Virus record (IMG/VR): IMGVR_UViG_3300018418_001588
Span: 1 to 39,197 of that record
DNA: 39,197 nucleotides
Source of the DNA: a virus
Strand: one strand, 5' to 3'
Part shown: in pieces, positions 3,715 to 28,293 of the stretch
How the letters are laid out: the number at the start of each line of letters is the position of its first letter
Numbering within the stretch: position 1 is the first letter of the stretch
Notes under the pieces: generated by a model
What the model was told of the DNA's origin: nothing
Seen by the model: only the letters and a program-made list of their open reading frames with translations
The model's database searches: none
Made by a program: the position numbers and the translations under genes

Positions 3715-4975
3715 AGAATTTAAACTCCGGATTCACACTAAAGAAGTCTTGCCCGCGAGTTTTATCTAATGCACGATTAAAGTTTATACAGTCTTGCCAA
3801 TGTGTGTCGTACATACATTTTGCTTCTAAGAAATTAATATTATCTTGTATTTGTTGTAATGTAACTGTTTTGAGCAACTCGTTTTCTTGTATAACAGCGT
3901 AATCAAGAATTTTAATTTGCATATCTTTTAAGTCACTAACAACCTTTTGTTTTAATTCTGGTGGTAGTGTTTGTGCAGACAGTGCCATAGGATAATTTAC
4001 ACGATGTGAATAAAATACAATGCCCATATCATTTAAGAAATAATCTATAACATCACAGATTTGCATTATATTATTTGCTTGTACAGTAAACGCACCTACT
4101 ACACGACTTACATTAGGAAATTCTTTAAACACCTTGATGTTCTCTTCTATTTCTTCAAACTTGCCATTGCCTCTAATGTATTCATAGACATCGTGTATAC
4201 CGTCTATGCTTACGTTTACAGCAATTGATTTAAACTTGGGCCAATAGTCATGTATAGTGCGTCCACCTTTTATGCCTAGTGTAGTACCGTTTGTAGCATA
4301 CTTTATTTCTATATTTTCACCATATGGCGCAAGCATGTCTAGTATTTTATAATGATAAGGATCCATTAATGGCTCGCCACCTGCAAACTCTACACGTCTA
4401 AAAAACGGTAGTAGTTTTTCAAAACTTTTCCACCAGTTATCACTGTTGTCAAATGGACCTATATACTTGCCTGGTGTATCTGTAAGTTTGTCTATTATTG
4501 GAATAAGAATATTATCTTCTTTTTCGTAATATGGTTTTACTTCGTTCCAATCTTTCCAACTTGTGCTGTCTAAAGGATTACACATACGACATTTTAAATT
4601 ACACAAGTTGTTAAGTTTAATTTCCATAGTAGGAATTTCAAATGGCATTGCATAATCGTCGTCTAGTGCGTCTAGTGCGTTAGGATACAAGTTTATACGT
4701 GCTTCTGGTATAACTCCTGCTATATGACGTTGTCGTAAGCTCTGTACACCCTGATCCTCTAAGTCAAAGCAAGGTTTGCATACTTCTGGACGCTCGTCAT
4801 TTAATACTTGTCTGCGTACTTCACGCATGGTGTCGTTGTTCCATGCTTGTTCTAAAGTTTCGTCTTGTATGTAGCCAATAGGAGCACTGCGGCAGCAAAC
4901 TTTAATTGCTCCGTCCTCTCGTGTAGCAAGTCCTGTAAAAGGATGCATACAGAATGTACAACTATTCGACTTCAC
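3707..4975 (-). CDS. Twitch-domain radical SAM protein
   Basis: A 422-residue radical-SAM protein with the auxiliary cluster region at the N-terminus: C6, C9, the CC pair at 27-28 and C66/C69. It precedes the core motif CNLKCRMC (C125, C129, C132). AGGEP follows about 70 residues later, and a C-terminal helical region has further cysteines (AKCMYDTHWQDC). This layout (Cys-rich head, RQRH-like linker, then the rSAM barrel) matches marine-phage and bacterial 'twitch domain-containing radical SAM' proteins and recurs at 11867-13009 and 19510-20427. It overlaps the PP-loop gene upstream by 14 bp. Substrate unknown; the family call is firm. Confidence 0.88.
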   Translation of the reverse strand: MKSNSCTFCMHPFTGLATREDGAIKVCCRSAPIGYIQDETLEQAWNNDTMREVRRQVLNDERPEVCKPCFDLEDQGVQSLRQRHIAGVIPEARINLYPNALDALDDDYAMPFEIPTMEIKLNNLCNLKCRMCNPLDSTSWKDWNEVKPYYEKEDNILIPIIDKLTDTPGKYIGPFDNSDNWWKSFEKLLPFFRRVEFAGGEPLMDPYHYKILDMLAPYGENIEIKYATNGTTLGIKGGRTIHDYWPKFKSIAVNVSIDGIHDVYEYIRGNGKFEEIEENIKVFKEFPNVSRVVGAFTVQANNIMQICDVIDYFLNDMGIVFYSHRVNYPMALSAQTLPPELKQKVVSDLKDMQIKILDYAVIQENELLKTVTLQQIQDNINFLEAKCMYDTHWQDCINFNRALDKTRGQDFFSVNPEFKFYV

Positions 4976-5636
4976 CTAACGCCCACTCCCGTTCTCTACA
5001 CCAAAAGCATTCTCCGCATATTGGAACAGGGTTACCCGGTGTATATGTTTTATAATTCAAACCTTCAAACTCTCCTTCACAACTACGAGTAATGTCAAAC
5101 AAATCTAGAATATCGTAATTATAGTATTGTTGTATAATCCAGTCTTTCTTAGTATACACGAAAGGATGCACAATGTCAACTCCCATATGTTTCATATGTA
5201 AAGGTAATACACCTTCATCTCGTTCGGGTAATCCGCCGGGTACGTCTTCTGGATTTTTAGTAACAGCAGCATACCATGCATCTAAGTTATAATTATGTAT
5301 TACCCATTCGTTGTGAGCTCTAAGTATAATTCTATTGCCAGGTTTTACTGCGCCGTATTCATCAGTAATAAAAGTTGTATTAGGTTCTTCCATTTCGGGC
5401 GGTATAAAGTTTTCTAAATGTTCTATACGATTAGGAAAATTATACTTAAACCATCTAACAACTTGCTGAGCAACATGACGCTGCCAAGGTCGTGTTTTCC
5501 ACATTCGTATTTGTGTAGTAAAATAAATGTCTGCATTAGTTTCTTTTAATATAAGATATGCTAGTAAAGCACTGTCTGCTCCGCCGCTTAAACTAATACC
5601 TATACGCTTCCACCCAGGATTCAAGAACAAGTTCAT
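4962..5636 (-). CDS. PP-loop ATP pyrophosphatase, QueC-like
   Basis: A 224-residue adenine-nucleotide alpha-hydrolase. The PP-loop SGGADS is at residues 17-22 of the first strand and helix. The C-terminus has four cysteines, one in RSCEG and three in CGECFWC, followed by RER, which resembles the zinc site of 7-cyano-7-deazaguanine synthase (QueC). QueC converts CDG to preQ0 using ATP and ammonia. FolE and QueE homologues at the far end of the window make a QueC role plausible. However, this gene lies about 32 kb away in a radical-SAM operon and could instead be an amide- or thio-forming PP-loop enzyme for that pathway. It heads the block: the ATG is 5 nt after a late-like element and has no Shine-Dalgarno sequence. 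Confidence 0.75.
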   Translation of the reverse strand: MNLFLNPGWKRIGISLSGGADSALLAYLILKETNADIYFTTQIRMWKTRPWQRHVAQQVVRWFKYNFPNRIEHLENFIPPEMEEPNTTFITDEYGAVKPGNRIILRAHNEWVIHNYNLDAWYAAVTKNPEDVPGGLPERDEGVLPLHMKHMGVDIVHPFVYTKKDWIIQQYYNYDILDLFDITRSCEGEFEGLNYKTYTPGNPVPICGECFWCREREWALGEVE

Positions 5637-5663
5637 GCTTATACTTATTCGTTAAATATCTGT
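5637..5663. promoter_or_regulatory. Back-to-back T4-late-like promoters, apparently leaderless
   Basis: The 27 bp between the divergent ATGs hold ATAAGTA on the minus strand (5642-5648) and TTAAATA on the plus strand (5652-5658), three bases apart. Each ends exactly 5 nt before its ATG. They resemble the T4 late consensus TATAAATA. If +1 lies about 6 nt downstream, as at T4 late promoters, both mRNAs begin at or next to the AUG. Neither ATG has a Shine-Dalgarno sequence. Confidence 0.6.
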
Positions 5664-6317
5664 ATGCTAGAGAGAACTGAATATACTGTAAAAGTTCCTA
5701 AAATTAACGAAGATTTTGAAAATTTTAAAACTACGTTAAATCAGCCAACTGGAGATTTTTTCTACGATCCGTGGGAAATTAAACCAGAGTATAAAGGAAC
5801 AGTTTGGGAAAAATTGCTTAAGAGCTTGCCTGAGCCTCACGGCGAAGCTCGTGTAATTGTAATGCAACCTGGTACTACTTATATGGCTCATGCTGATATT
5901 GATAATCGTTGGCATCTAAATTTACAAAGCGAACAGGCTTATCTAATTAATTTAGTTTCTCAAGATATGCATTTATTAGAAAAAGACGGATACTGGTATT
6001 ATATGGATGCAGGAAATATACACACTGCGTCAAACTATGGTAGTATTCCTAGAATACAGTTAGTTGTAAGAGAACTATTAACAGCAACAGAAATAGAAGA
6101 ACTTGCACAAGTTACAATTAAACCGGCAATGCCGCAATATGATTATAGATATAAATTTGACAATATAATTAGCCCATGGCTTAATACTGCTAATAAAGAT
6201 GGTGTTATAAAAGATTTTGAGGTTGACGGCGAAGTTGTTAAATTTAAAATACCAATTACAGAATTAAGTTTAAAATTGCCAAAGGAGTTTCGCATTGAAG
6301 TGGAAACCATATCTTAA
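5664..6317 (+). CDS. 2OG-Fe(II) oxygenase-like (aspartyl/asparaginyl hydroxylase-like fold)
   Basis: A 217-residue protein with a double-stranded beta-helix signature: H76-x-D78 (AHADID), distal H120 (NIHTAS) and R130 ten residues later (IPRIQLVV), the usual Fe(II) triad and 2-oxoglutarate anchor. Members couple 2OG decarboxylation to hydroxylation of peptides or small molecules; the substrate here is unknown. About 85 residues follow the core and may be a small extra domain. It is the first gene of the 5664-10659 operon and starts without a leader. The next gene overlaps it by 23 bp. Confidence 0.7.
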   Translation: MLERTEYTVKVPKINEDFENFKTTLNQPTGDFFYDPWEIKPEYKGTVWEKLLKSLPEPHGEARVIVMQPGTTYMAHADIDNRWHLNLQSEQAYLINLVSQDMHLLEKDGYWYYMDAGNIHTASNYGSIPRIQLVVRELLTATEIEELAQVTIKPAMPQYDYRYKFDNIISPWLNTANKDGVIKDFEVDGEVVKFKIPITELSLKLPKEFRIEVETIS

Positions 6318-6969
6318 ACTAAGCGAAGAAGGCAATCCGTGCATGGCTCAACAAACTTACGAGCCTTTAGTTAGTGAAGACGGAAAAACTTTCTGTAAAA
6401 ATTATGCTTGGCCGAATGATTATCAATATATGGAAACAAAGGATCGTCCGTTATATACTGACGAAGTTGTTGAATGGTTTTGGTTTAATGAACTTACTTA
6501 TTTAGAGGTCTTTAAAGATAAACCTTACGCACCTGAAGTTACTGATATTGATTATGTTAACAGAAAAATATATCTTAAATGGAATGAGGCAAGTTGTAAT
6601 CAAATAATTTATAGTGGGCTGCCTTGGCCGCAAAATGTTTGGCGTCAACAAATTAAAGATATTATGCTTGACATTTACAATGAGGGCGTATATAAATTAA
6701 CAATGTATCCTCACTGTCATTATATAAGCAGTGAAGGAAACATGCGAGCAATTGACTGGTACGGATGTGTACCTGTTGAAGAGCCTTACATCGAAGAAAA
6801 ATATATGCAAGGCATAATTCATGAAACTGCTCAATTTCGTTTAGAAGAAACAGGTGCAGCGGTAGACAATGTTTTAAATTTAGAGACTATGTTTAAGAGA
6901 AGTTTAGGCACTCATGTAAAATGGGGAGACCAAGATATGAGCTACATATACAAGGAAATTTTTAAATGA
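6295..6969 (+). CDS. Kinase-fold-like protein, probable pseudokinase (TTG start)
   Basis: A 224-residue protein that I place tentatively in the protein-kinase/aminoglycoside-kinase-like fold. It has a central helix (IKDIMLDIYNEGVYKLTMYP), then HCHYI and the strand MRAIDWYGC, in the order of a catalytic loop (HPxN) and a DFG-like strand. The catalytic HxD is not intact. A paralogue of similar layout lies at 13006-13695. The TTG start is chosen because AAGGAG lies just upstream (AAGGAGTTTCGCATTG); it overlaps the previous gene by 23 bp. A role as a recognition or regulatory protein rather than an active kinase is inferred. Confidence 0.55.
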   Translation: MKWKPYLKLSEEGNPCMAQQTYEPLVSEDGKTFCKNYAWPNDYQYMETKDRPLYTDEVVEWFWFNELTYLEVFKDKPYAPEVTDIDYVNRKIYLKWNEASCNQIIYSGLPWPQNVWRQQIKDIMLDIYNEGVYKLTMYPHCHYISSEGNMRAIDWYGCVPVEEPYIEEKYMQGIIHETAQFRLEETGAAVDNVLNLETMFKRSLGTHVKWGDQDMSYIYKEIFK

Positions 6970-7823
6970 ATATTGTAGTGTTTGGACATAGTATTGGATT
7001 AGACGACGGAGTTCAAGAAGATCATTGGACTCGTTATTTAGAAAAAAGACTTAGTACAAATGTAGTTAATAAATGTGTAGCACAATGTAGCGAAGAACGC
7101 ATTTTGTTTAATTTGAAAAAAACAAAAAATATTGATTTGGCAATAATTATTCATACTCCTCCTTGGGCAATATTTGTTCCAACATGGGACAGAGACATAC
7201 AAAACGTAGACAAGGATAGTTTTAATAGTAAAGTTGATATTTTAAAATTTTTAGATAGTGCAGGAATTACAGGTACTGAAGAAATAGATGAAGCTGTTGA
7301 TTGGTATTCCGTAGTATCTAACGGAATGATACAAGAATTGTTTAAACGCTATGGTATTGAATTTGAAGAGATGACTCCTGGTATACAAGAGTTTTTAGAT
7401 AATGGAAATACTACAATTATTAAACAAGAATTTTTAGAACTAGTTGAAAAGAGTAAAGGAGATGTAGAATACTATAATAGTTTATTTGATGCATTAACTT
7501 TATTTAGAAAACATTTATATCATCCGGATTTGGCAATGAATAGATATTACGGAGCTCTAATACAAATTGATCAATATATAACAGCAATGAATATACCGTG
7601 TATTCATTTGCTAGATAATCCTGCTTGGTATCCTAAATGGTTTAAATTTACATCAGGTATTGTTGATACAGAATTACAAAAAACAAAACGAGAAACAGGA
7701 CCTTATTATGTTGGGTATAATAAATCCTGTAATGCATTAAACAAGGAAGGTAACGAACTAATATATAATAAAATAGTTGAATTGGCTGCGGGGGCAGGAT
7801 TCGAACCTGCATTCACGAGTTAA
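6966..7823 (+). CDS. SGNH-hydrolase-like protein whose 3' end lies in an antisense tRNA
   Basis: A 285-residue protein. The N-terminal VVFGHSIG at residues 4-11 corresponds to the SGNH/GDSL nucleophile block. It is followed by IDLAIIIHTPPW (block-III-like position) and a C-terminal region resembling the 14538-15221 protein. SGNH enzymes are esterases or acyltransferases, often acting on glycans. AAGGA precedes the ATG, which overlaps the previous stop. The last 13 residues (AAGAGFEPAFTS and neighbours) are encoded by the complement of a tRNA T-arm and anticodon arm. That is a known artefact peptide, so the native C-terminus probably ended before about 7783 or was replaced by recombination at the tRNA. 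Confidence 0.65.
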   Translation: MNIVVFGHSIGLDDGVQEDHWTRYLEKRLSTNVVNKCVAQCSEERILFNLKKTKNIDLAIIIHTPPWAIFVPTWDRDIQNVDKDSFNSKVDILKFLDSAGITGTEEIDEAVDWYSVVSNGMIQELFKRYGIEFEEMTPGIQEFLDNGNTTIIKQEFLELVEKSKGDVEYYNSLFDALTLFRKHLYHPDLAMNRYYGALIQIDQYITAMNIPCIHLLDNPAWYPKWFKFTSGIVDTELQKTKRETGPYYVGYNKSCNALNKEGNELIYNKIVELAAGAGFEPAFTS

Positions 7824-7859
7824 CCGCCCGCTGCTTTACCAACTGTTAGCTACCCCGAC
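7783..7859 (-). tRNA. tRNA-Asn(GUU), atypical
   Basis: A 77-nt cloverleaf with encoded CCA and discriminator G (expected for Asn). The T arm is perfect (GCAGG, loop TTCGAAT, CCTGC). The anticodon stem GCGGG/CTCGT encloses loop CGGTTAA, giving anticodon GTT. The D arm contains AGTTGG. Oddities: position 33 is G rather than the near-universal U, acceptor pairs 1:72 and 2:71 are mismatched (G-A, U-C; GGGG/CCCC pairs below them), and the fourth D-stem pair is A-A. It may be a decaying phage tRNA. It is the only minus-strand feature in the 5664-10659 plus block and has its own perfect TATAAATA upstream. Confidence 0.75.
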
Positions 7860-7897
7860 TTCCGGAATGGGTCATAAGACTCCGTAGACCGGCATAT

Positions 7898-7905
7898 TAT
7901 TTATA
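7898..7905 (-). promoter_or_regulatory. T4-type late promoter upstream of the tRNA
   Basis: A perfect TATAAATA on the minus strand, 38 nt before the tRNA 5' end. Transcription from it would make the tRNA precursor and then run antisense into the SGNH-like gene. The 8-mer alone can occur by chance in AT-rich DNA; its placement in the 95-bp gap before the only tRNA supports it. Confidence 0.5.
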
Positions 7906-7918
7906 GAAGGAAAATGAA

Positions 7919-8494
7919 TTGGCAACGTATTTAGGAACAACAGACGGCATCATTGACTGGGATCCTATTGTAGAGATTTGTAAGGATTGTACAACAGGAG
8001 ACTACAATTCAGTTAAATCAGTTGTTGAACGATCTGAAGGCAATTGGCGTGATAATCCAGAGCTACTAGGAAGGTACCATGAGATTATTAATACCTGGGA
8101 TGATGCTGGATATAACTTAGAAGAAATTGAATGGTGGGACTATTATCCCGGTGAACATTTTGATATAGAAATACAAAACAAATTTGCAAAAATAGTAAAT
8201 GCAGAACCGTTAAGAGTTTTTGTAAGTGATGTACGTCCTGGAACAAACGTACCATATCATTGGGACGTTGAAGACAATGAAGAAGAATGGTTAGCACAAG
8301 GAGAACTAAAACGCTGGGTTTGCTTTATGGATAAGCCTCGCTGGGGTAGTGTGTTAATATTAGAAGACAAAGCATTTCATAATGTGCCACAAGGTGAAAT
8401 ATGGGAATGGGATAATTACAGAAGTTATCACGCAGGAACAAGTTGCGGTATACATCATCAATATTTGTTTCATTTTTTAGGGAGACCCAAATAA
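7919..8494 (+). CDS. 2OG-Fe(II) oxygenase-like protein, tandem paralogue 1 (TTG start)
   Basis: A 191-residue protein with a cupin-type metal site: H114-x-D116 (YHWDVE) and distal H171 (YHAGTSCG). The residue ten after the distal His, where relatives have Arg or Lys to bind 2-oxoglutarate, is Gln181, so 2OG use is doubtful. It is clearly homologous to the next gene (INWD near the N-terminus, HWDV, KPxWG, QGExxxW, HAGTxCG). The TTG start follows GAAGGAAAATGAA; the ATG just upstream is out of frame and stops at once. It follows the antisense tRNA. Possible roles are a hydroxylase or a degenerate partner of its neighbour. Confidence 0.65.
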   Translation: MATYLGTTDGIIDWDPIVEICKDCTTGDYNSVKSVVERSEGNWRDNPELLGRYHEIINTWDDAGYNLEEIEWWDYYPGEHFDIEIQNKFAKIVNAEPLRVFVSDVRPGTNVPYHWDVEDNEEEWLAQGELKRWVCFMDKPRWGSVLILEDKAFHNVPQGEIWEWDNYRSYHAGTSCGIHHQYLFHFLGRPK

Positions 8495-9024
8495 TGGTAA
8501 GAAGCATTGGAGTATGTAACACAATCAACTGGGATGCAGTAATTAAAGACTGCGAAAATTCAAATCCTGAGTATGTAGGACCTAGTCATAAGCGTGGAGA
8601 TAATATACCTGGTTTAGATCCTATATTAGACATGTGGGAAGAAGCAGGATATAAAACTGTACACGAAGGTGGAACTGCTGGATGGGATATGTTTATTCCA
8701 GGTAAACAATTTGACACAAGCATAGTAGATGCTTGGAACGAACACTACAATTTAGACTGTAAAAATGTTTGGATAAGCAGAGTATGGCCCGGACGGTTTG
8801 CTCCTATACATTGGGACGTACACGATGACGAAGAAAACTTACCCGAATGTGCAAGATATCACTCGCATATTGGTAAGCCTCAGTGGGGACATATTTTTAT
8901 TGTAGACGATAAATGTTTGTATAATAGAACACAAGGTGAAACGTTTAGATGGGAAAATAGAAAATTATGGCATGCAGGAACTAACTGTGGTACAACACCT
9001 AAATATATATGGAATGCTTGGTAA
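8494..9024 (+). CDS. 2OG-Fe(II) oxygenase-like protein, tandem paralogue 2
   Basis: A 176-residue paralogue of the preceding gene: H106-x-D108 (IHWDVH), distal H160 (WHAGTNCG) and Lys170 ten residues later, where Lys could anchor 2OG as in prolyl 4-hydroxylases. The reading frame is open 17 codons further upstream, but ATG 8494 is preferred because AGGGAG lies 8-9 nt before it and it overlaps the previous stop as TAATG. It also shares its core with the shorter protein at 15205-15693. Substrate unknown. Confidence 0.68.
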   Translation: MVRSIGVCNTINWDAVIKDCENSNPEYVGPSHKRGDNIPGLDPILDMWEEAGYKTVHEGGTAGWDMFIPGKQFDTSIVDAWNEHYNLDCKNVWISRVWPGRFAPIHWDVHDDEENLPECARYHSHIGKPQWGHIFIVDDKCLYNRTQGETFRWENRKLWHAGTNCGTTPKYIWNAW

Positions 9025-9033
9025 GGAGAAAAG

Positions 9034-9630
9034 ATGGAAAAAGTATTATCAGAGATGCCTAGAATATCAGTTTTTACTGATGTACTTACAGATGAAGAAT
9101 CAGATTACTATGTAAAAAAATACAGTGAACTAGGAATGAATCCTGATGCAGGATTAGAATCACGAGAGCAAACAAATGGGCAAATCACAGAAGAAGTAGA
9201 ACAGCGTAGTATTAGCTGGGATACTGATAACGAAGATAGAGAGTTTTTTAAAAAACGTCTTGCAGAAACAGTTGGATTTCCGATTGAACATATAGAAGCA
9301 GGCGATATTTATAGATATCAACCTGGACAGTATTTTGGTCTGCATCACGACTTTCCTTACACTCCAGAAGAAATTGCATATTATGAAAAAGGTGGTGACA
9401 GAAAAGCAACAGGTATTTTTTGGTTAACAGGTGACTTCGAAGGCGGTACTTGTGATTTTCCTGAACTAGATGTATCAGTAAAGCCTGTAAAAAATGGTAT
9501 GTTTTATTTTGAATATGACTACGAAGATGAAGCAATTAATCAGTCAACTATACACGAAGCAATGCCCATAACAAAGGGAGAAAAATGGATCGCAGCATTT
9601 TTTATTGCTAATGGTCCAAGAGTAGAATGA
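9034..9630 (+). CDS. Prolyl 4-hydroxylase-family (P4Hc) 2OG-Fe(II) oxygenase
   Basis: A 198-residue protein with the best canonical P4Hc signature in the window: YRYQPGQYFGLHHD with H104-x-D106, a mid-barrel GGxCDFPEL strand, distal H174 (STIHEAMPI) and Lys184 for the 2OG C5-carboxylate. The family hydroxylates proline or other peptide residues. P4Hc genes are common in marine T4-like phages, where the target is mostly unknown. AAGGAG lies 6 nt before the ATG. It sits directly after the two 2OG-like paralogues and overlaps the SDR gene by 4 bp. Confidence 0.85.
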   Translation: MEKVLSEMPRISVFTDVLTDEESDYYVKKYSELGMNPDAGLESREQTNGQITEEVEQRSISWDTDNEDREFFKKRLAETVGFPIEHIEAGDIYRYQPGQYFGLHHDFPYTPEEIAYYEKGGDRKATGIFWLTGDFEGGTCDFPELDVSVKPVKNGMFYFEYDYEDEAINQSTIHEAMPITKGEKWIAAFFIANGPRVE

Positions 9631-10070
9631 AGTTTTATATAACAGGTAGTACAAAGGGGCTAGGAGAATATCTAGCAAAATATTTTCATTGTAAGAGCTT
9701 TAACAAGCCTCTTGCATTGAATGAAGATATTGATTTAATTTGTGATAGTATTGATGAAGGTAGCACTGTTATATTAAATGCACATGCAAGTCAATTAGAG
9801 TATGTAGAACGTTTGAAAGATAAGTGTAAACTAGTTGTTATGGGCAGTATTGCAGCAGTAAATTTTGATCCTGAAATGGCAGAATACAGCAAAGAAAAAT
9901 GGGAACTGGAAAAAAACGTACAACAGTTAGCATTACACAACAAGTATCCTATGTTGTATTTACAGTTAACGAGTAGCAGTTATCGTGATTACCAAATGAT
10001 TGCAAACAGTATAAAGTTTTGGTTAGAAAATCCAGACATAACTTTTATAGGGTATAATATAAATGACTAA
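9627..10070 (+). CDS. Short SDR-like NAD(P)-binding protein
   Basis: A 147-residue Rossmann protein. The N-terminus FYITGSTKGLGEYLAKYF has the TGxxxGxG dinucleotide motif of classical SDRs. An NAH-type strand (ILNAHAS), VMGSIAA (catalytic Ser position) and YSKEK (YxxxK) follow in the right order. It is about 100 residues shorter than a typical SDR, but the active-site residues remain. It is coupled to the P4Hc gene by ATGA and overlaps the next SDR by 8 bp. The pair may form a heterodimer or catalyse successive steps; the substrate is unknown. Confidence 0.75.
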   Translation: MKFYITGSTKGLGEYLAKYFHCKSFNKPLALNEDIDLICDSIDEGSTVILNAHASQLEYVERLKDKCKLVVMGSIAAVNFDPEMAEYSKEKWELEKNVQQLALHNKYPMLYLQLTSSSYRDYQMIANSIKFWLENPDITFIGYNIND

Positions 10071-10659
10071 GAAAATAGTAATTACAGGACATACCGGCGG
10101 CATTGGTAAAGCAATATATGATAAATTTACAGAAGTAAGTTGTCATGAAATTATAGGTATGAGTCGCAGCAATGGTTATGACATCGAATCAGACTTTGAC
10201 AAAGTTGTAGAAGAAGCAATTGGTGCAGAAATTTTTATTAACAATGCTTATAGAGACGAACAGCAACTAAAACTGTTTCATGCACTTAAAGATAAAGTTG
10301 ATATGATGGTTGTTATGGGCAGTGTAAGTAGACATTATCCCGAACTTATTCCTACAGATTATGTGCATGACAAACAAGAACTAGCAGAAGCATGTCGTTT
10401 AGAAAGCATCAATCCAAACGGTATTCCTATATTACATTTAGATTTAAGTTTTATCGAAGGCACTGAAATAAACAACAATGACCCTACAGCATTTAAAAGC
10501 GATTATAATACTAGTTTTGAAGATATAGTTGACACAATTATATTTTGGGCTCAAAAGCCGAGCATACGTCAAGTCGAATTTCGTTGGAAGTTAACTGAAC
10601 AAGTACGTGCAGAATTAGAACGCATTAATCCAAATGTAGATTTTTCAAGAGTCGAATAA
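10063..10659 (+). CDS. Short-chain dehydrogenase/reductase (SDR)
   Basis: A 198-residue SDR: KKIVITGHTGGIGKAIYDKF gives the TGxxxGIG cofactor motif, INNAY the NNAx strand, VMGSVS the catalytic Ser, and YVHDK the YxxxK pair. SDRs of this size oxidise or reduce alcohols and ketones on sugars, lipids or polyketides. It is paralogous to the preceding gene and overlaps it by 8 bp. Its 3' end overlaps the convergent gene by 15 bp. Substrate unknown. Confidence 0.8.
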   Translation: MTKKIVITGHTGGIGKAIYDKFTEVSCHEIIGMSRSNGYDIESDFDKVVEEAIGAEIFINNAYRDEQQLKLFHALKDKVDMMVVMGSVSRHYPELIPTDYVHDKQELAEACRLESINPNGIPILHLDLSFIEGTEINNNDPTAFKSDYNTSFEDIVDTIIFWAQKPSIRQVEFRWKLTEQVRAELERINPNVDFSRVE

Positions 10660-11319
10660 ATGTCGTTCTAATCTAATACAAATAAAAAGCCAATCTTCGT
10701 CTGACGGGTTCCATAATGCATGTGGACTATTTGTTGCATCAAATATGTATGCATCATACAATCCCATATTATCGACTCTATCGTCTACTTTTAACTTAAC
10801 TACGTCATTAGACTTTATGTTGACTAACAATGAATAGTTAGGACGTCCATCGTCTCCGTCAGTGTGCGTTGGCAATATACTAGAAGGAGAAAACCAAAAA
10901 ATTAATGCTTCTCTAGCAATATCACATTTATCTAGATAAAGATTTTGTTCTTTTAATAAATTTTTTACATACGGGTGCGGCCAATCATAATCTGCATGAT
11001 ATGAATAAATTACCCTCCATTCGGATTCTTGTTTTAATAAGTATTGACTTTCTTTAGGAAAACGGCATAACAACTCTTCTGTTAGTTCGTCACTTGCTGT
11101 TTCGCATGATGAAGTAAGATGTGCTATATTGTCTTTATAATGTAAAAAACTCCAAGATTCAAAATCATCATATGTTGGATTTTTTAATATGTTTTCTTTA
11201 ATGTCATCAACATCTAAGTTTTTAAAGTGTGATTTTACATACGTTACTAATTCTTTTACTTTAGATAACGCATCACCTTCTAAAACTTTTTTAACTCCGA
11301 TATCTTGTTTTATATCCAT
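10645..11319 (-). CDS. Aspartyl/asparaginyl hydroxylase-like 2OG oxygenase
   Basis: A 224-residue protein. The C-terminal half carries H152-x-D154 (THTDGDD), then NYSLLVNI, distal H200 (SPHALWN) and R216 (ICIRLE), the order of aspartyl/asparaginyl beta-hydroxylase-like barrels. The N-terminal 100 residues are helical and unassigned. The pattern SPHALWNPSDEDW is very close to PHSAWNWTDDWW in the protein at 20405-20905, so the two are probably related. It is last in the minus block 10645-13695 and overlaps the GNAT-like gene by 10 bp. Confidence 0.72.
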   Translation of the reverse strand: MDIKQDIGVKKVLEGDALSKVKELVTYVKSHFKNLDVDDIKENILKNPTYDDFESWSFLHYKDNIAHLTSSCETASDELTEELLCRFPKESQYLLKQESEWRVIYSYHADYDWPHPYVKNLLKEQNLYLDKCDIAREALIFWFSPSSILPTHTDGDDGRPNYSLLVNIKSNDVVKLKVDDRVDNMGLYDAYIFDATNSPHALWNPSDEDWLFICIRLERHLFDS

Positions 11320-11867
11320 CGTTCAAATCTTTCTAAATTAGCAAAAAACTTTTCTGGATGTATTTCCCATACAGTTTGATCTGTGTGTCTATAGTGTACA
11401 TCTTTAATTTTAGATACAATACCTAGTTTAGCAAGTGTAGGAAAGTAATAGCTATGCACAAGGCGTTGACTTGCTTCTTTACTAGCATTTGATGTAGCAA
11501 ACATTCGTCCACGTCCTGCAACCCATTCTATGCACTGCGGCAGCAAAAATTGGTCTGTTAAATTTTGATGTTCTGCTACAAGACGTTTAGGAGTAATTAA
11601 TCCTGCGCCCTTTCGTTCTTCTGCAAACGTACACACACGAGTTAGTATGCGATATCCGCCTGGCATAACATCATCAAAAGAGTGTGCAGCAACACTACCT
11701 ACAGCATTATTGTTATTGTAAAGTATCCAAGCATTCCATTCACGTTCATTACGAAAGCAATCTATCATTGCTTTTTGACTAGAGTTATTAACAAACCCTC
11801 GACGACTTGCTTCGTTATAAAAATTAGTTAAGTCTAAACCTTCGTGCCATTCAACAGTTTTATACAT
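11310..11867 (-). CDS. Possible GNAT-like acyltransferase
   Basis: A 185-residue protein without a decisive motif. Its centre (AWILYNNNNAVGSVAAHSFD, then RILTRVCTFAEERKGAGL) resembles the beta4/beta5 strands of a GNAT fold, where a backbone-bulged strand and a basic turn bind acyl-CoA. A C-terminal helix (SKEASQRLVHSYYFPTLAKL) resembles the end of such folds. I see no perfect RxxGxG/A. It is coupled to the twitch radical-SAM gene upstream (1 bp overlap at 11867) and overlaps the downstream oxygenase-like gene by 10 bp. An N-acyltransferase in a tailoring pathway is a guess. Confidence 0.5.
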   Translation of the reverse strand: MYKTVEWHEGLDLTNFYNEASRRGFVNNSSQKAMIDCFRNEREWNAWILYNNNNAVGSVAAHSFDDVMPGGYRILTRVCTFAEERKGAGLITPKRLVAEHQNLTDQFLLPQCIEWVAGRGRMFATSNASKEASQRLVHSYYFPTLAKLGIVSKIKDVHYRHTDQTVWEIHPEKFFANLERFERWI

Positions 11868-13009
11868 TAGAATGCTTCCTTCTTTTGTAATAGCAGCTCG
11901 TCAACAACAGGAATATAATCGTAATTGTTTATAAGTTCGTTTAGTTTTGGATTTAATTTTTCAAAGTCTGCGTTTGTTACTTTTAATAATTTTTTATGCC
12001 AAGCAACAAAATAGTTGAACAAGTTTTTACTGTCTTGCTCCATATAACCTAGTAAATCATTATAGCCATATTCTAACAAATAAGATTTTACATATTCTTT
12101 ATAGTCAGTGGGCATCGCAATTAACGACATAAAATCAGGAGTAATTAATGCATCTTTACTTCTAGTAAATTTTGGAAAGTTTTCGTCTAAAAATTTATCA
12201 AGTAAATGCAAGTAATTTACGTTATAAGGAGTTACTACACAATGTATTACAATGTTAGTTTCTCCTTTTCTGTTGTCGTACAGATCATGAAAGTATTTTA
12301 AATTTTCTTTAACTTTATTCCATTCTGCACCAATTCGAATAAATTCAAACAATCCTTCAACAGCATCGATGCTTATATTTAAATCAAGATATTTACAGTT
12401 TAAGAAAACATCTTCAACTACTCCGTTAGGAATAAGTGTTCCATTAGTTGAGCCCACTACCTTTAAATTTTCGAGTTCGCCTGATTCTTTAACTCTGTTA
12501 CATATATCTGTAATATTTTTACTAAGTAATGGTTCTCCGCCAATTAACTTTATAGTATCTAATTTTGAAAAGTCAACATTTTTATATAGAGTAGTATTGT
12601 ATGCAGGAGACGAAGCACGACCAAACAAATTTATTTCTTCTTTAATCCATGCTGTGCTTCTTCCTGATGAACAAATATTACATTTTAGATTACACGTATT
12701 GTCTAATTCAAATTCCATAAATGTTAATTTTGGTTCAGTAAGTACTCCATAATGTTCGATTGATTTTTGACGCATTGATTTCACACCAACATCTTCTTTA
12801 ACCCAACATTCGTGACATTCGTCAACACGTTCTCCACTATCTAAACGCTTTCGTAAAGTATCCATTTCTCCGTGTAAATACTCGTTTTCAATATCGTCAG
12901 TTTTTAATCTAATATTACCTCGATACAAACAACATGGTAAAATATCATGATTGTCACCGTCGTCTGGTAATAATACTACACTATTATAAGTTAGTGGACA
13001 GTGTTTCAT
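11867..13009 (-). CDS. Twitch-domain radical SAM protein
   Basis: A 380-residue protein. The N-terminal auxiliary Cys set (C4, the CC pair at 26-27, C65, C68), the MRQKS linker and the core motif CNLKCNIC (C106, C110, C113) precede GGEPLL. The layout is the same as in the proteins at 3707-4975 and 19510-20427, which also have CC at about 22-28 and CxxC at about 59-69. The C-terminal ~100 residues are helical and differ between the three. It overlaps the kinase-like gene upstream by 4 bp. The family is clear and the substrate unknown. Confidence 0.88.
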   Translation of the reverse strand: MKHCPLTYNSVVLLPDDGDNHDILPCCLYRGNIRLKTDDIENEYLHGEMDTLRKRLDSGERVDECHECWVKEDVGVKSMRQKSIEHYGVLTEPKLTFMEFELDNTCNLKCNICSSGRSTAWIKEEINLFGRASSPAYNTTLYKNVDFSKLDTIKLIGGEPLLSKNITDICNRVKESGELENLKVVGSTNGTLIPNGVVEDVFLNCKYLDLNISIDAVEGLFEFIRIGAEWNKVKENLKYFHDLYDNRKGETNIVIHCVVTPYNVNYLHLLDKFLDENFPKFTRSKDALITPDFMSLIAMPTDYKEYVKSYLLEYGYNDLLGYMEQDSKNLFNYFVAWHKKLLKVTNADFEKLNPKLNELINNYDYIPVVDELLLQKKEAF

Positions 13010-13695
13010 TTATAAATCTCTTTAGCAGCTTCCATAACATCGTCTCGAAAGTTTGTTTTAAAACTTTCAAATGCTAGTAGTTGTATTTCTTTATGCGGTG
13101 TAGGTGCTTCTACATCAATGCCCATAGAAGCCATTTTAGGAAATAAGTCTGCTTGTCTATCTTCACTAATATGACTCATTACACTACGCAAACTTATATC
13201 ATTATCAGCTTGATCATAAGTAAAGAAATAATTCATACTTTTAAGTTTACCGTTTATAATAAAGTAACTTGACGGATGCAAACTGTATTTGGTTAATCCT
13301 AAGTCTTTGTGTGCTTGTAGTATTTCGAGCATCTGTTTATCCCAGTCAGGCAATACCTGTGAGTAGTCTGTTCCTACACAGCCGGCAAGTTCCCACATAT
13401 CAGGTCCATCTATTTCTAAATAAACTTTTCGTTCCTTTTCGTCGATACTAAACTTAGGAATATGTTCAGGATAGTGTGTTTTCATTATCCTTAAAAATTT
13501 AACCTCACGTTCAAATTTTTCATCCATCAACGACGGGTCAACAACTTGATTATGCCCACCGTGATAATTTTCGTCGTTGTAGTACCATTGACAAAAAAGT
13601 CCGTTTTTTGAAATTAAGCTAGTATAAATTAGATTATTTCTACATAACCCTTTGCCAGGAACGTTGTTGTAATAATATTCATAATTCCCGTTCAT
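13006..13695 (-). CDS. Kinase-fold-like protein, probable pseudokinase paralogue
   Basis: A 229-residue protein similar in order to the protein at 6295-6969: a strand with KVYLEIDGPD (hinge-like), a helix WDKQMLEILQAHKDLGL, then YSLHPSSYFIINGKLKSM, matching the HPxN-iDf catalytic region of small-molecule kinases but with the HxD and DFG acids replaced (the strand ends in NYFFTYD). Kinase activity is therefore doubtful. It is the first gene of its block. Its ATG is 5 nt after ATAAGTA and has no Shine-Dalgarno sequence. The fold call is moderate. Confidence 0.55.
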   Translation of the reverse strand: MNGNYEYYYNNVPGKGLCRNNLIYTSLISKNGLFCQWYYNDENYHGGHNQVVDPSLMDEKFEREVKFLRIMKTHYPEHIPKFSIDEKERKVYLEIDGPDMWELAGCVGTDYSQVLPDWDKQMLEILQAHKDLGLTKYSLHPSSYFIINGKLKSMNYFFTYDQADNDISLRSVMSHISEDRQADLFPKMASMGIDVEAPTPHKEIQLLAFESFKTNFRDDVMEAAKEIYK

Positions 13696-13722
13696 GCAAA
13701 TACTTATCTGGTAAGTATATGT
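13696..13722. promoter_or_regulatory. Back-to-back late-like promoters forming an inverted repeat
   Basis: A 27-bp divergent spacer with the same 5-7-3-7-5 layout as 5637-5663: ATAAGTA on the minus strand (13701-13707), three bases, GTAAGTA on the plus strand (13711-13717), each followed by 5 nt and ATG. Together they make the inverted repeat ATACTTATCTGGTAAGTAT (7-bp arms, 5-nt centre). No Shine-Dalgarno sequence precedes either ATG, so leaderless starts are predicted. Confidence 0.62.
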
Positions 13723-14538
13723 ATGATTAGAGGAATTGGTGGCAAACCATACATTAACTTAGATCCTTATTTAGACATAAAGGGTTTTAGGAATCTGCAT
13801 CCAGAAATTTGCAAAGGTTTTGCATTAGCAAGAGATTATGCAAAAGAAGGAACGTGGATGGCTCCTGGCTTTGACTGGAAGGACGCTTCTTATATTTTAA
13901 ATTGGAAACCGATTTATCAAGCGTGGGATGACTATCAGTCATTGCCAGACGACCACCCTATTAAGGTAGAAGGCAATAAAATATTACCAACAGACTTTGG
14001 CGACTATAGGCAACGAAACATTTTTACAAGATATTTAAAAACAACTATGGGTGCAAATGACCCATACATATATTATTTTTTATGGAATGAAGGAGATTGG
14101 AATGAAAGGAACGCTGAACGTCAAAAGACTGAAGAAGCGATTTTCTTTCCGGGTGTCGTTAAGTGGGTTGAAAGCCTCCAAGAAGAAGGTATCATTAGCC
14201 AAATCGGAAGGGTAATATTTTTCCACTGTGATCACAACGGTAGAGCATTTGAACATAGAGACTTAGATGCAAATAACGGAGTAATGGATGATAAGCAATA
14301 TAGTCCGCACAATAATGAATTTATACATATACGCTATCGCACAAAAAGAGGATTTTATATTTGGGATCCTGAAAGCGAAAATAAACATTACTTGAATTGT
14401 AATGCAGCGTTTTGGAATGATCAAGATTGGCACGGCGGAGAAAGTAGTGCTGAAGTAGAATACGGATTAAGAGTCGATTGTAAATTTACTCCTGAATTTA
14501 GAAAAGTGTTAGGCATAAGTCATTTAGAGAATTACTAA
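13723..14538 (+). CDS. 2OG-Fe(II) oxygenase-like protein
   Basis: A 271-residue protein with H178-x-D180 (FEHRDLD), distal H237 (QDWHGGESS) and R250 (YGLRVDC), spaced like an Fe(II)/2OG double-stranded beta-helix. The long N-terminal part (ILNWKPIYQAWDDY) is unassigned. The first gene of a three-gene plus block with an SGNH-like hydrolase and a second 2OG-like protein. The ATG is 5 nt after GTAAGTA without a Shine-Dalgarno sequence. The next gene starts at its stop. Substrate unknown. Confidence 0.65.
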   Translation: MIRGIGGKPYINLDPYLDIKGFRNLHPEICKGFALARDYAKEGTWMAPGFDWKDASYILNWKPIYQAWDDYQSLPDDHPIKVEGNKILPTDFGDYRQRNIFTRYLKTTMGANDPYIYYFLWNEGDWNERNAERQKTEEAIFFPGVVKWVESLQEEGIISQIGRVIFFHCDHNGRAFEHRDLDANNGVMDDKQYSPHNNEFIHIRYRTKRGFYIWDPESENKHYLNCNAAFWNDQDWHGGESSAEVEYGLRVDCKFTPEFRKVLGISHLENY

Positions 14539-15221
14539 TGAATATCGGGTTTTTTGGCGATAGCTTTAGCCACGAAAACAATAAGATTATTCAGATTGCA
14601 GATGGCTATAAAACTTATATACACCTCTTAGAAAAAGAGTTTAAAACAAAAATATCAATAAAAAGTAGAGGAGGCTGTTCGCACTGGGACATCATCTTAA
14701 ATCAGTTCTTGCCAAACAAAGACAACTTGCCTGATATTTGTATTTTTACTTGGCCTGATAAAAACAGATTTTTTCATAGAAAAATTAGGCATATACGCAG
14801 ACAAGAAGCGTTAGAGTATTCAAATACAAAAAACAAATTTTTAAATATAAATTATAGTAATGGTTTATACAAGAAGCAATGGAAAGCAGCAGAACTTTAC
14901 TATAAAGATTTATTTGATGAAGAAAAAAATGATTTAGAATATCTTTCTTCATTATACTATTTTGATAATGTAATTTTAAAAAATATTCAAAACAAAAAAT
15001 TTATACATTTATGGAGTTTTGAAAATGTTTATAATTGGAATAATAATATTACATTAAAAACTCCTTTAGTTAAAATTGCAGAAAGTGTAATACCTAATTA
15101 TCACGAAGGACCGAGAGAAACAAATAAAAATTATCTAGCAATGAATCATTTACCTGGACAAGAATTAAATGATATTGTGTTTGAAAAAGTGAAAGGATTA
15201 ATAAATGAAGTATGTAAATAA
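14538..15221 (+). CDS. SGNH/GDSL-like hydrolase
   Basis: A 227-residue protein opening with IGFFGDSFSHE, the GDS nucleophile block (Ser about residue 9), then the oxyanion-type glycine region SRGGCSHW and a C-terminal MNHLPGQELN, where the catalytic Asp/His block of SGNH enzymes normally lies. Known members are esterases or O-acyl transferases acting on lipids or polysaccharides. The gene is strikingly AT-rich and Lys/Asn-rich compared with its neighbours, suggesting a separate origin. It overlaps the next gene by 17 bp. Confidence 0.7.
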   Translation: MNIGFFGDSFSHENNKIIQIADGYKTYIHLLEKEFKTKISIKSRGGCSHWDIILNQFLPNKDNLPDICIFTWPDKNRFFHRKIRHIRRQEALEYSNTKNKFLNINYSNGLYKKQWKAAELYYKDLFDEEKNDLEYLSSLYYFDNVILKNIQNKKFIHLWSFENVYNWNNNITLKTPLVKIAESVIPNYHEGPRETNKNYLAMNHLPGQELNDIVFEKVKGLINEVCK

Positions 15222-15693
15222 TTGGAAATACAATATTCATCCTTTACTTAGGCAACGTGTATTAGATACCGAAGGACAGGCCCGGCCTAGAGATTGGCCT
15301 CCAGCATTTGCAGTTGAGAGTGATGAATACAAACGTGCTGAAGAAGCAGGTTACGATTTATCGGCTGTACACTGGTGGGTTTATGAACAAGAAAACTTAG
15401 GTCCTGTAGTACTACCTTTAGAAAATAATTATCATTGGTGGATTACTAAACTATATCCAGGACAGTTTATGCCAATGCACAGTGATCCGCACACACACGA
15501 AAGTCCTTGTAAACGTTATTGGATTCCGTTACAAGATTACGAACCAGGACATATTTTTATATATAAGAAACACTTAATGACTGACTATAAAGCATTTGAT
15601 GTTTTTACTTACGATAAAAGTACAGATATGCACGGAGCAGCTAACATAGGGCATACTCCGAGGGTAGTTTTACAAGTTACAGAATACGTATAA
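15205..15693 (+). CDS. Small 2OG-Fe(II) oxygenase-like protein
   Basis: A 162-residue protein with H92-x-D94 (MHSDPHTH), GHIFIY, distal H143 (MHGAANIG) and R153 exactly ten residues later. It shares the GHIFI strand and the HxG...P(R/K) end with the paralogues at 7919-9024 and is the family form with an intact 2OG-binding Arg. It overlaps the SGNH gene by 17 bp upstream and the convergent radical-SAM gene by 17 bp downstream. Substrate unknown. Confidence 0.7.
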   Translation: MKYVNNWKYNIHPLLRQRVLDTEGQARPRDWPPAFAVESDEYKRAEEAGYDLSAVHWWVYEQENLGPVVLPLENNYHWWITKLYPGQFMPMHSDPHTHESPCKRYWIPLQDYEPGHIFIYKKHLMTDYKAFDVFTYDKSTDMHGAANIGHTPRVVLQVTEYV

Positions 15694-16669
15694 ATTCTTT
15701 ATTTTTTGGTAAAACGTTAAGTTCGTTTTTAATAACCTCAACATTATTTTTAGGACACATACTGCATTCGTCTATATGACAATATATGTTAGACATAAAT
15801 TTATCAATTTCTTCGTCTGTACAATTAGCTAAGTCTAATCCTTTATATTTTAAATACTTTTGCCAATCTGGATCATCTAAAGATCCGTGTCTTGCCAAAA
15901 ATGTTTCAAGTGTACCTAAAGCTGCACACTTATAAATTCTGCCGTCTCTAAGCAAAGCACAAAAATTACTAGGGCAACTGTTCCAGTAAGAAGATTTCGG
16001 ATCGCCTTCGTCATAAGGTTTTGGCTTTCCGTCTACAAATTTTGTAATAGTACTAAAATAGTCTGACTGAATGTAATACACACCGTATCCGTGATCTCCC
16101 ATCCAAGCTCTGTCATTACCGTCTAAGTCGTCAGGAGTAAAATTAGTAGTGTCTAACCATTGTCGCCATTCGGGACCACCATCTTCTCTGCTGATAATTT
16201 TTCTCCACCATTCTTCGGCAGTACTTTCTTCTAAATCAAGTTTATCAGCTAAGTCTAATGTAGCCTGTATAATTCTGTTAGAATAACTTTTATCGTTAAA
16301 TGCAGAAGTATGATCGCATACTTGTATACACATGTTATATTGTTTAGCTAAGTCTGCTACTAAATCTAGATTTTTACTTAGTAACATGCCGTTTGTAGGA
16401 AAAATTATTTTTGAATCAGGTTCCAATGATCTAAGATAGTCTAATATTGCCTTACACTTATCAATATATAATAAAGGTTCACCACCTAGTACTCCCCAGA
16501 TGTCTACATTAAATTTTTCGTGAGCTAGTCTTATACTTTCTTTTATACCTTCTAATTCAGGATCGTCAGAAGTGCCTCTTACATGATCACTCCTTGTGTC
16601 GCATTGACTACAAGCTAAGTTGCACTTGTTTCCATAAAATATGTCAAGTATTTTAATTTCTCTTTTCAT
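15677..16669 (-). CDS. Radical SAM protein, CxxCPKN-terminal family
   Basis: A 330-residue radical-SAM protein: CNLACSQC (C16, C20, C23), LGGEPLL, and a C-terminal Cys region (YWNSCPSNFCALL, IYKCAAL, then NCTDEEIDKF and CHIDECSMCPKN). The last motif recurs in the proteins at 17430-18260 (CTDKELEDF...CGMCPKN) and 20876-21739 (CTIDEFNEW...CAFCPW). The three form one paralogous family with a likely auxiliary cluster. A middle insertion (EEWWRKIISREDGG and onward) is specific to this copy. It overlaps the 2OG gene upstream by 17 bp. Confidence 0.87.
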   Translation of the reverse strand: MKREIKILDIFYGNKCNLACSQCDTRSDHVRGTSDDPELEGIKESIRLAHEKFNVDIWGVLGGEPLLYIDKCKAILDYLRSLEPDSKIIFPTNGMLLSKNLDLVADLAKQYNMCIQVCDHTSAFNDKSYSNRIIQATLDLADKLDLEESTAEEWWRKIISREDGGPEWRQWLDTTNFTPDDLDGNDRAWMGDHGYGVYYIQSDYFSTITKFVDGKPKPYDEGDPKSSYWNSCPSNFCALLRDGRIYKCAALGTLETFLARHGSLDDPDWQKYLKYKGLDLANCTDEEIDKFMSNIYCHIDECSMCPKNNVEVIKNELNVLPKNKEFIRIL

Positions 16670-17390
16670 ACTGTTTCCTGTAGCTATTAGCTACTAAATC
16701 TATAAAATCATACTTTCTATTGCCAGGTATACCATGTGCAATTAAATGTGTGCGTGGGTGCATACTTTGATTTATTACACTATGATATTTACGAATATTT
16801 ATTATAAATGCCTTTCCGGCTAAAAACGGAACTATGCCCTCTCCTTCTAACGTCATTTTACACATAGGGGGATGTGTAATTGCTACATTAATAGGTACAC
16901 CAAAGTCCAACATATCTATGCCTTGCTCTCCTGGTAGTCGCCCTGGAGCATCACTATGAGGAGATATTTCTCCTCGTCCTTCTAGTTGCATAAATCTAAT
17001 ACGTCTATATGTTTGATACGGAAAGTCTTCCCAAAACTTTTTTATATGGGGCGTTTTTTCACTTAGACTTGTCCATTTGTACGGCACTTCTGATTCGTCT
17101 TTCCAGTCTCCGTAATTAGTCCATGCTCCTGTTTTGTCTACATCAATTCCGTGTATACAAGAACTCCTCCAGCCAGGATGTTCACTACCTCTATGATCTA
17201 CATATTCAGCAAATCGAGTTTCGCTTTCCCACAGCTTGTGCGGAATGTCTATATCTAATTCTAGCCAAGCAAAGTCGCTTCTGTTCAACAACCAACTAGC
17301 AATATCGTAATTAGTTGAACAATATCGAGGTGCTTCTGGAAGTGTTGCGTTAAAATCTTTGTTTGCGTTATAGAATTCCAAGGCATTCAT
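16653..17390 (-). CDS. 2OG-Fe(II) oxygenase-like protein
   Basis: A 245-residue protein (247 if the ATG at 17396 is used). The barrel carries H145-x-D147 (SPHSDAP), distal H203 (KYHSVIN) and R213 ten residues later, the complete Fe(II)/2OG set of aspartyl/asparaginyl hydroxylase-like proteins. The second ATG (17390) is preferred because it lies exactly 5 nt after ATAAATA, like the other divergent starts; the first ATG overlaps that element. The gene is paired with the radical-SAM gene it overlaps, the simplest rSAM-plus-oxygenase unit in the window. Confidence 0.75.
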   Translation of the reverse strand: MNALEFYNANKDFNATLPEAPRYCSTNYDIASWLLNRSDFAWLELDIDIPHKLWESETRFAEYVDHRGSEHPGWRSSCIHGIDVDKTGAWTNYGDWKDESEVPYKWTSLSEKTPHIKKFWEDFPYQTYRRIRFMQLEGRGEISPHSDAPGRLPGEQGIDMLDFGVPINVAITHPPMCKMTLEGEGIVPFLAGKAFIINIRKYHSVINQSMHPRTHLIAHGIPGNRKYDFIDLVANSYRKQYEKRN

Positions 17391-17429
17391 AAACATATTT
17401 ATGTGCGTATATTACTGATAAGTATGTAT
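17391..17429. promoter_or_regulatory. Back-to-back late-like promoters, apparently leaderless
   Basis: A divergent spacer of 39 bp. ATAAATA lies on the minus strand (17396-17402) and ATAAGTA on the plus strand (17418-17424), 15 bases apart. Each is followed by exactly 5 nt and then ATG (17390 minus, 17430 plus). No Shine-Dalgarno sequence is present. Same rule as the two 27-bp spacers, with a longer centre. Confidence 0.58.
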
Positions 17430-18260
17430 ATGGTTAAGCTAAAAATTCCACATTTAGAGTGGCATGTTGCTCACGCTTGTAATTTTACGTGCGAAGGGTG
17501 CTGCCATTTTTCTAATATGGGTCCAACTACTCCTATAAGTTTTGAAGATATAAAAGATTGGTATAATACTTGGGCGCCTAGACTTGCTCCAAAAACTATA
17601 GATATATTAGGTGGTGAGCCGCTATTGAACAAACGTATTGTAGATATTGTAGAACTAACAAGAAACAAATGGGACGATCCTTATTTAGAAAGACTTGACA
17701 TAACCACTAATGGTGTGCTATTATATAAGTATCCTGATTTGCCTAAAGTGCTTAGTGACAATAATTGTGGTTTAAAAATATCAAAGCATGGAACAAACAC
17801 TGAGTATAATGAGCTTTGGAAAAGCATAGAAAGTATTGCATTAGAATGGAAAGAGAAATATAATATTAATGTAGACTTTTGGAAATCAGACGTTGTGTGG
17901 TTTGAGATGTACAAAGGGTTTGGCAATAGCATGGAACCTTTTGAAGATAATAACCCAGAAGAAAGTTGGAATAATTGTGTAACAGGACAAGATTGTTTTC
18001 AAATACATGAAGGCAATATTTACAAATGCGCACCGCTTGCATACTTACCGATGACAGGACAAATGTATAATTTGTCAGATAAATGGGATCATTATTTAAC
18101 TTACAAACCAATTACACCAAATTGTACAGATAAAGAATTAGAAGATTTCTTTAATCGTAAAGCAGAAAGTTATTGTGGAATGTGTCCTAAGAATCCAAAA
18201 ATTTTAAATAGAAAAAATGATCCACGCCTATCAAAAATACATTACGAGGAAATAAAATGA
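17430..18260 (+). CDS. Radical SAM protein, CxxCPKN-terminal family
   Basis: A 276-residue radical-SAM protein: CNFTCEGC (C17, C21, C24), LGGEPLL, a Cys pair in NNCVTGQDCF and IYKCAPL, and the C-terminal NCTDKELEDF plus CGMCPKN block shared with 15677-16669 and 20876-21739. The frame is open with an ATG at 17403, but 17430 is chosen because it lies 5 nt after ATAAGTA and begins just before the first strand (VKLKIPHLEW). It overlaps the next gene by 4 bp. Substrate unknown. Confidence 0.85.
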   Translation: MVKLKIPHLEWHVAHACNFTCEGCCHFSNMGPTTPISFEDIKDWYNTWAPRLAPKTIDILGGEPLLNKRIVDIVELTRNKWDDPYLERLDITTNGVLLYKYPDLPKVLSDNNCGLKISKHGTNTEYNELWKSIESIALEWKEKYNINVDFWKSDVVWFEMYKGFGNSMEPFEDNNPEESWNNCVTGQDCFQIHEGNIYKCAPLAYLPMTGQMYNLSDKWDHYLTYKPITPNCTDKELEDFFNRKAESYCGMCPKNPKILNRKNDPRLSKIHYEEIK

Positions 18261-21739: not shown

Positions 21740-21820
21740 TATTACATATTTAACCAGGACTAGTCTTTTTTACTGTAGAGATGATTAAATACATTAATAT
21801 TAGCAGTAAAGGAGAACGAA
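21740..21820. promoter_or_regulatory. Divergent late-like promoters with one leadered side
   Basis: The minus side has TTAAATA (21747-21753) ending 7 nt before the ATG at 21739. The plus side has TTAAATA (21785-21791) about 29 nt before the TTG start at 21821, with AAAGGAG between them. This junction therefore pairs a nearly leaderless start with a conventional leadered one. Confidence 0.4.
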
Positions 21821-28285: not shown

Positions 28286-28293
28286 TATTTATG
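28286..28293 (-). promoter_or_regulatory. T4-like late promoter of the tail-fibre gene
   Basis: CATAAATA on the minus strand, 34 nt before the tail-fibre ATG. The leader contains AGGAG, so this late promoter gives a conventional leader, unlike those of the divergent accessory genes. Confidence 0.55.

Follow-up and report, generated by a model that had tools for sequence, protein, structure and literature searches.

Can a phage late promoter lie so close to its gene that transcription would begin on the start codon itself? The question is raised by a fragment of viral DNA of 39,197 nt (IMGVR_UViG_3300018418_001588, positions 1-39,197; hereafter "the window"), in which six genes flanking three divergent junctions each have a box of the form NTAARTA, resembling the late promoter of phage T4, placed 5 nt before the ATG. 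From comparisons of sequence, we consider it highly probable that these six elements are T4-type late promoters giving leaderless mRNAs, often arranged as tight bidirectional pairs.

Six gene starts at three divergent junctions

Both strands of the window were scanned for TAARTA-N5-ATG, and exactly six sites were recovered, one at the start of each gene bordering the three junctions; these were the sole such sites and lay where a preliminary description of this DNA had placed them. A backwards control pattern gave two sites. All six starts had NTAARTA (a TATAAATA-like box with a loose first position) and a pyrimidine immediately before the ATG, and inspection bore out the earlier statement that none has a Shine-Dalgarno sequence (0/6).

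Junction 1 (5637..5663, both strands; 27 bp) is a predicted bidirectional element of the form CAT-N5-TAYTTA-N5-TAARTA-N5-ATG. Its putative late-promoter boxes are ATAAGTA (5642..5648, minus strand), at N5 from the ATG at 5636 of a predicted leaderless gene with a QueC-like domain (4962..5636, minus strand; phrog_1550, 2.2e-8), and TTAAATA (5652..5658, plus strand), at N5 from the ATG at 5664 of a predicted leaderless, aspartyl/asparaginyl hydroxylase-like gene (5664..6317, plus strand; PF05118). The junction sequence is identical in locus L111 on contig IMGVR_UViG_3300023105_001451. Junction 2 (13696..13722, both strands; 27 bp), likewise predicted to be bidirectional, has the same form, with candidate boxes ATAAGTA (13701..13707, minus strand) and GTAAGTA (13711..13717, plus strand) at N5 from the ATGs at 13695 and 13723 of two predicted leaderless genes (13006..13695, minus strand, and 13723..14538, plus strand) for which family searches gave no match; the second is widespread in IMG/VR (178 relatives). 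The 271- and 229-amino-acid proteins had no match among INPHARED phages. Junction 3 (17391..17429) is longer, at 39 bp, and lies between predicted leaderless genes for an aspartyl/asparaginyl hydroxylase-like protein (16653..17390, minus strand; PF05118) and a radical SAM protein (17430..18260, plus strand; PF04055), with predicted boxes ATAAATA (17396..17402, minus strand) and ATAAGTA (17418..17424, plus strand) at N5 from the ATGs at 17390 and 17430. Both of these genes have an extra in-frame ATG 6 nt upstream of the rule-obeying one (at 17396 and 17424, respectively) that overlaps the box (TAAATATGtttATG, TAAGTATGtatATG), so the choice of ATG at junction 3 is one that we infer. A seventh start (21739, minus strand) has a possible near-leaderless box, TTAAATA (21747..21753, minus strand), separated by 7 nt from the ATG of gene 20876-21739; the spacing is the same in the close relative L204, relatives being few.

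Leadered genes with similar boxes and Shine-Dalgarno sequences, which the preliminary description had set against the six, were present as described: at the starts 28251 (minus strand), 34050 (minus strand), and 21821 (plus strand), boxes lie 29 to 34 nt upstream and the Shine-Dalgarno sequences are of the AGGAG/AAAGGA type. Among them are the putative boxes ATTAAATA (21784..21791, plus strand), 29 nt ahead of the TTG start codon of 21821-22897, which has AGGAG, and CATAAATA (28286..28293, minus strand), 34 nt before the ATG of the tail-fibre gene 26809-28251 with CAGGAG. Sigma-70-like promoters were considered as well and set aside: junctions 1 and 3 had one each (chance level), none aligned so as to explain the spacing, and the four at junction 2 (chance mean, 0.9) were weak, overlapped one another, and do not explain the spacing.

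The earlier view that six starts out of six with the same spacing are unlikely to be chance did not hold for the raw count: dinucleotide shuffles of the window gave 2.73 +/- 1.56 TAARTA-N5-ATG matches, and 7 of 100 reached six. It did hold for placement at gene starts, with a Poisson P of ~3e-8 for six starts at spacing 5 against the window's own gene-start background, and for the two-sided form, found at 2 junctions in the window versus 0 in 100 shuffles. The window count by itself is only mildly unusual; the comparative data decide significance.

Box spacing in relatives and across IMG/VR

Exact scans of IMG/VR with the two-sided pattern returned at least 119 loci at N5/N5, compared with 38 at N4/N4, 12 at N6/N6, and 2 at N10/N10. 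Long or contig-truncated open reading frames (ORFs) lay on both sides in 60 of the 74 unique N5 junctions among the matches listed; those 60 represented 26 gene-pair types and 40 protein families, the commonest pair being that of window genes 13006 (minus strand) and 13723 (plus strand), with 28 of the 60. The N4 sites, with ORFs both ways in 16/22 unique cases, are a real second class, and the N10 sites look like background. The consensus box in relatives was GATAARTA/NATAAATA. Across 73 deduplicated loci, with the sites used for fetching excluded, the distance from box to ATG peaked at 5 (41 cases), with 13 and 10 at the neighboring spacings and ~2 to 3 elsewhere. The motif ATRAAT was unusable as a spacing control because it overlaps the true box, and its maximum at 6 comes from the same sites.

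A histogram of box-to-ATG spacing (d) was compiled from nine contigs, the window and eight relatives (1.53 Mb). ATG starts numbered 19 at d=4, 135 at d=5, 46 at d=6, and 28 at d=7, over a background of ~3.5 at each d<=3; a trough of ~4 to 5 each at d 9-15 was followed by a broad second mode at d 17-36. The second mode matches, by position, predicted leaders of ~12 to 31 nt, and the trough falls where a leader would have no room for a Shine-Dalgarno sequence. Enrichment over background, which the preliminary description had looked to for significance, was thus found both in the IMG/VR spacing controls and in the histogram. Start codons at spacing 5 were ATG in 135 cases, GTG in 8, and TTG in 0, as expected of leaderless mRNAs. 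Shine-Dalgarno sequences accompanied 2% of the 135 d=5 starts versus 60% of the leadered class (P 3e-28), and C or T preceded the ATG in 92% of the 135 versus 47% of 1042 other starts (P 7e-26). Save for this pyrimidine at -1, the five bases between box and ATG were variable in the d=5 class. Genes of the relatives were called mechanically (longest ORFs, in-frame ATGs), a procedure that adds noise but no false peak at d=5, since T4, Syn9, and S-PM2, handled alike, show none. In back-to-back pairs the central distance between the boxes was 4 to 5 bp in the 13723 family, and 5 bp in 9 of 19 whole-contig junctions.

The TAAGTA form of the box was found in 23/53 leaderless boxes versus 7/69 leadered Shine-Dalgarno boxes (G001, G003, G004, G014, G016, and the window). 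This bias perhaps reflects tuned promoter strength or different recognition.

Orthologues recovered without reference to the motif

Orthologues of 13723-14538 fetched without the motif had the box at 5 in 41/51 unique upstream regions and at 4 in one; most exceptions had AGGAG, GGAGG, or AAGGAAGG just upstream, within operons or with a box at 19 to 22. For the partner gene, 13006-13695, a local search gave spacing 5 in 28/41 unique orthologue upstreams. At junction 1, 33/36 orthologues of 5664-6317 kept a close box (spacing 5 in 11, 4 in 21, and 7 in 1), as did 21/21 unique upstreams with alignable starts (box at 4, 5, or 7), while unique orthologue upstreams of 4962-5636 had spacing 5 in 16/33 and spacing 4 in 9/33 (local search). 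At junction 3, the box arrangement of 16653-17390 was the same in L025, and the relative of 17430-18260 in L088 (protein 51% identical) kept spacing 5 with a different N5 sequence. The leader and Shine-Dalgarno sequence of the tail-fibre gene 26809-28251 were kept in its relatives. One and the same gene thus alternates among relatives between a box at the ATG without a Shine-Dalgarno sequence and a Shine-Dalgarno start. The proposal that relatives would keep the N5 spacing while its sequence varies was confirmed in both the IMG/VR scans and the motif-blind orthologues.

Late sigma genes and phages with the class

Genes for gp55-like late sigma factors were identified in 10/20 relatives' records (phrog_234, E 1e-20 to 1e-27; phrog_12791, down to 1e-82), including all records >150 kb except G009. 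The 39-kb window, itself a fragment, has no gp55-like gene. G001, a 123-kb contig and close relative, has both a gp55-like gene and junctions 1 and 2 letter for letter; its gp55-like gene adjoins a gp47-like gene, and in T4, genes 47 and 55 are a few kilobases apart. Two very large phage contigs, L045 (561 kb) and L074 (578 kb), were also observed to carry a gp55-like sigma gene, bS21, and a bidirectional junction.

No d=5 starts were found in T4, Syn9, or S-PM2. Among cultured Pelagibacter phages, isolate HTVC008M had 11 (P 2e-9) and isolate Mosig had 6 (P 2e-4); Melnitz had 3. The HTVC008M sites coincide with depositor-annotated starts, for DNA end protector, head closure, tape measure, tube cap, baseplate wedge, tail completion, and CsgF, and one pair (18916, minus strand; 18943, plus strand) forms a bidirectional junction of 26 bp. 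The HTVC008M transcripts predicted to begin on the A of the AUG are those at 6280, 7562, 11972, 16007 (minus strand), 18916 (minus strand), 18943, 19456, 31132, 49760, 75830, and 142360. Annotated starts of Mosig that agree are those of the DNA end protector (106670, minus strand), an Asp/Arg hydroxylase (92996, minus strand), and 94129 (plus strand); in both isolates the annotated starts in the class include T4-late orthologues. The CsgF case (position 7562; locus L462) is a phage-borne curli assembly gene, csgF, starting at a predicted leaderless late promoter.

In two T4-like contigs of ~200 kb, G002 (IMGVR_UViG_3300020048_000014) and G005 (IMGVR_UViG_3300023174_000047), the class takes in terminase, portal, neck, tail fibre, and tail lysozyme genes (terminase and portal in G002), and a box lies 4 to 8 nt from the ATG in about a third of the genes analyzed. 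Shine-Dalgarno use was 34 to 56% in the other genes of the window clade, G006, and HTVC008M, versus a 2 to 6% background; in G002 and G005 it was 4 to 6%, that is, background. G002 and G005 probably infect a host that does without Shine-Dalgarno sequences, such as Bacteroidota.

Phage-encoded bS21 was entertained as a partner of the leaderless class and rejected: it is present in HTVC008M, PA5oct, Atu_ph07, G006, G007, G008, G012, G014, and G019 and absent from G001-G005, a distribution that does not follow that of the class. In vitro, ribosomes carrying the bS21 of HTVC008M reportedly yielded only ~5% of a green fluorescent protein reporter (PMC6375957). The ribosome side of those viruses that do have phage bS21, leaderless templates included, is worth testing.

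Predicted start site and comparison with known systems

Bacterial transcription start sites favor a pyrimidine-purine step, and in T4 itself T and A occupy positions +5 and +6 past the late boxes. The T4 late box occupies -13 to -6 (PMC1524935), so a spacing of 5 puts the transcription start (+1) on the A of ATG, which is probably where these mRNAs begin. The leaderless reading put forward in the preliminary description is supported by this geometry together with the pyrimidine-purine step, the absent Shine-Dalgarno sequences, the replacement of the box by a Shine-Dalgarno sequence in orthologues without it, and the gp55-like genes of relatives.

We propose that a -10 box, NATAARTA, would be recognized by host RNA polymerase carrying a gp55-like sigma factor of the phage and that transcription would start on the A of ATG or within one base of it. 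The mRNAs would open with 5'-AUG, free of leader and Shine-Dalgarno sequence, and ribosomes would take the 5' AUG directly. In sequence, the junctions have the opposed -10 elements with coupled spacing of a bidirectional promoter; with cores 4 to 5 bp apart in a 26- to 27-bp spacer, one small element would serve two diverging leaderless operons, and simultaneous binding of two polymerases would probably be impossible. Other late genes of the same genomes would have a leader of ~12 to 31 nt and a Shine-Dalgarno sequence, giving two modes of translation initiation in one late program. We infer the late timing, the exact +1, the leaderless translation, and the mutual exclusion of paired promoters from these features.

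Late transcription in T4 is a textbook case, and its mRNAs have leaders. The elements described here resemble its gp55/gp33/gp45-dependent promoters in having a box of the form NATAAATA and, in relatives, a gp55-like sigma gene; unlike them, they stand at the start codon, T4 boxes peaking ~23 to 29 nt upstream, mostly with Shine-Dalgarno sequences. Leaderless phage mRNAs are known elsewhere, for lambda cI and the late transcripts of phiKZ-type jumbo phages, and these likewise begin at AUG, but their polymerases and promoters differ from those of T4-type late transcription and are not known to be paired back to back at conserved spacing. Bidirectional bacterial promoters have symmetrical, opposed -10 elements on short DNA, whereas here a phage late box is used and both predicted start sites are start codons. 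The late-promoter consensus of cyanomyoviruses S-PM2 and Syn9, NATAAATA (PMC2984593), is also similar, although neither phage has the d=5 class. Open-access papers on T4-like phages, cyanophages, pelagiphages, and jumbo phages yielded no earlier report of late genes that are leaderless; a prior mention may exist in preprints or in subscription papers such as that on the Syn9 transcriptome. Published methods reportedly could not predict late promoters in pelagimyophages (PMC7029224), and boxes sitting at start codons may explain why they were missed.

Alternative explanations

Several observations weigh against our reading. Spacings of 4, 6, and 7 occur too, and some starts may have 1- to 2-nt leaders or a shifted +1. 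In the marine clade, leadered starts lack the pyrimidine at the corresponding position. This is explainable if start precision matters only when AUG is +1, and we read it as start choice relaxed where a leader follows, but it makes a general initiator signature harder to claim. Of named phages, PA5oct has the gp55 closest to that of G001 (46% identity), yet it has only 3 sites.

The alternative closest to our reading, that these are late promoters with ultra-short leaders and +1 lies 1 to 3 nt upstream of the ATG, draws on the spacings of 6 to 8 that exceed background, mainly in G002 and G005, and on the fact that T4-type start sites can shift by a base. We regard it as improbable, given the peak at 5, the sharp left edge at d=4-5, and the rarity of purines at -1 in the d=5 class (8%), which disfavors initiation at -1. 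Still less likely is an AU-rich translation enhancer or shared operator, with mRNAs coming from promoters further upstream. Starts lacking a Shine-Dalgarno sequence need another signal, and weak sigma-70-like matches do exist around the junctions, for the most part about as often as chance would give; yet leadered genes with Shine-Dalgarno sequences have the same box 17 to 36 nt upstream, beyond a trough, this box agrees with the late promoter published for cyanophages, NATAAATA, the 27-bp divergent spacer leaves little room for another promoter outside the neighbor's coding region, and gp55-like genes are present. Chance, whereby TAARTA near ATG would be frequent in AT-rich intergenic spacers and which could produce the 7 in 100 window shuffles with as many matches, is refuted by the IMG/VR spacing controls and opposed by the motif-blind orthologues, the histogram peak, and the zero such starts in T4, Syn9, and S-PM2, and we give it almost no credence.

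Other features of the window

A QueE-like gene lies at 37835-38821, and together with the QueC-like gene at 4962-5636 it suggests 7-deazaguanine modification of DNA or tRNA. A long island (1-26831) has many radical SAM genes (7 with a Pfam match) and several iron/2-oxoglutarate oxygenase-like and sugar-nucleotide-like genes; it may encode a pathway that modifies peptides or glycans. ORF 6966-7823 runs at its end into a tRNA-Asn gene (7783-7859, minus strand), and its final residues (AAGAGFEPAFTS) derive from the tRNA-Asn sequence.

Implications

Beyond the six starts, we think it likely, with less assurance than for the window itself, that aquatic T4-superfamily phages have a genome-wide second late mode, in which gp55-type promoters fused to start codons, often bidirectional, would shift part of late protein synthesis to leaderless translation. 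The T4 type of late promoter appears joined to the start codon across many lineages of phage, cultured Pelagibacter phages included. The spacing would provide a simple rule for finding late promoters and correct start codons, altering gene-start annotation, and leaderless translation as a strategy of late infection would become testable in phage.

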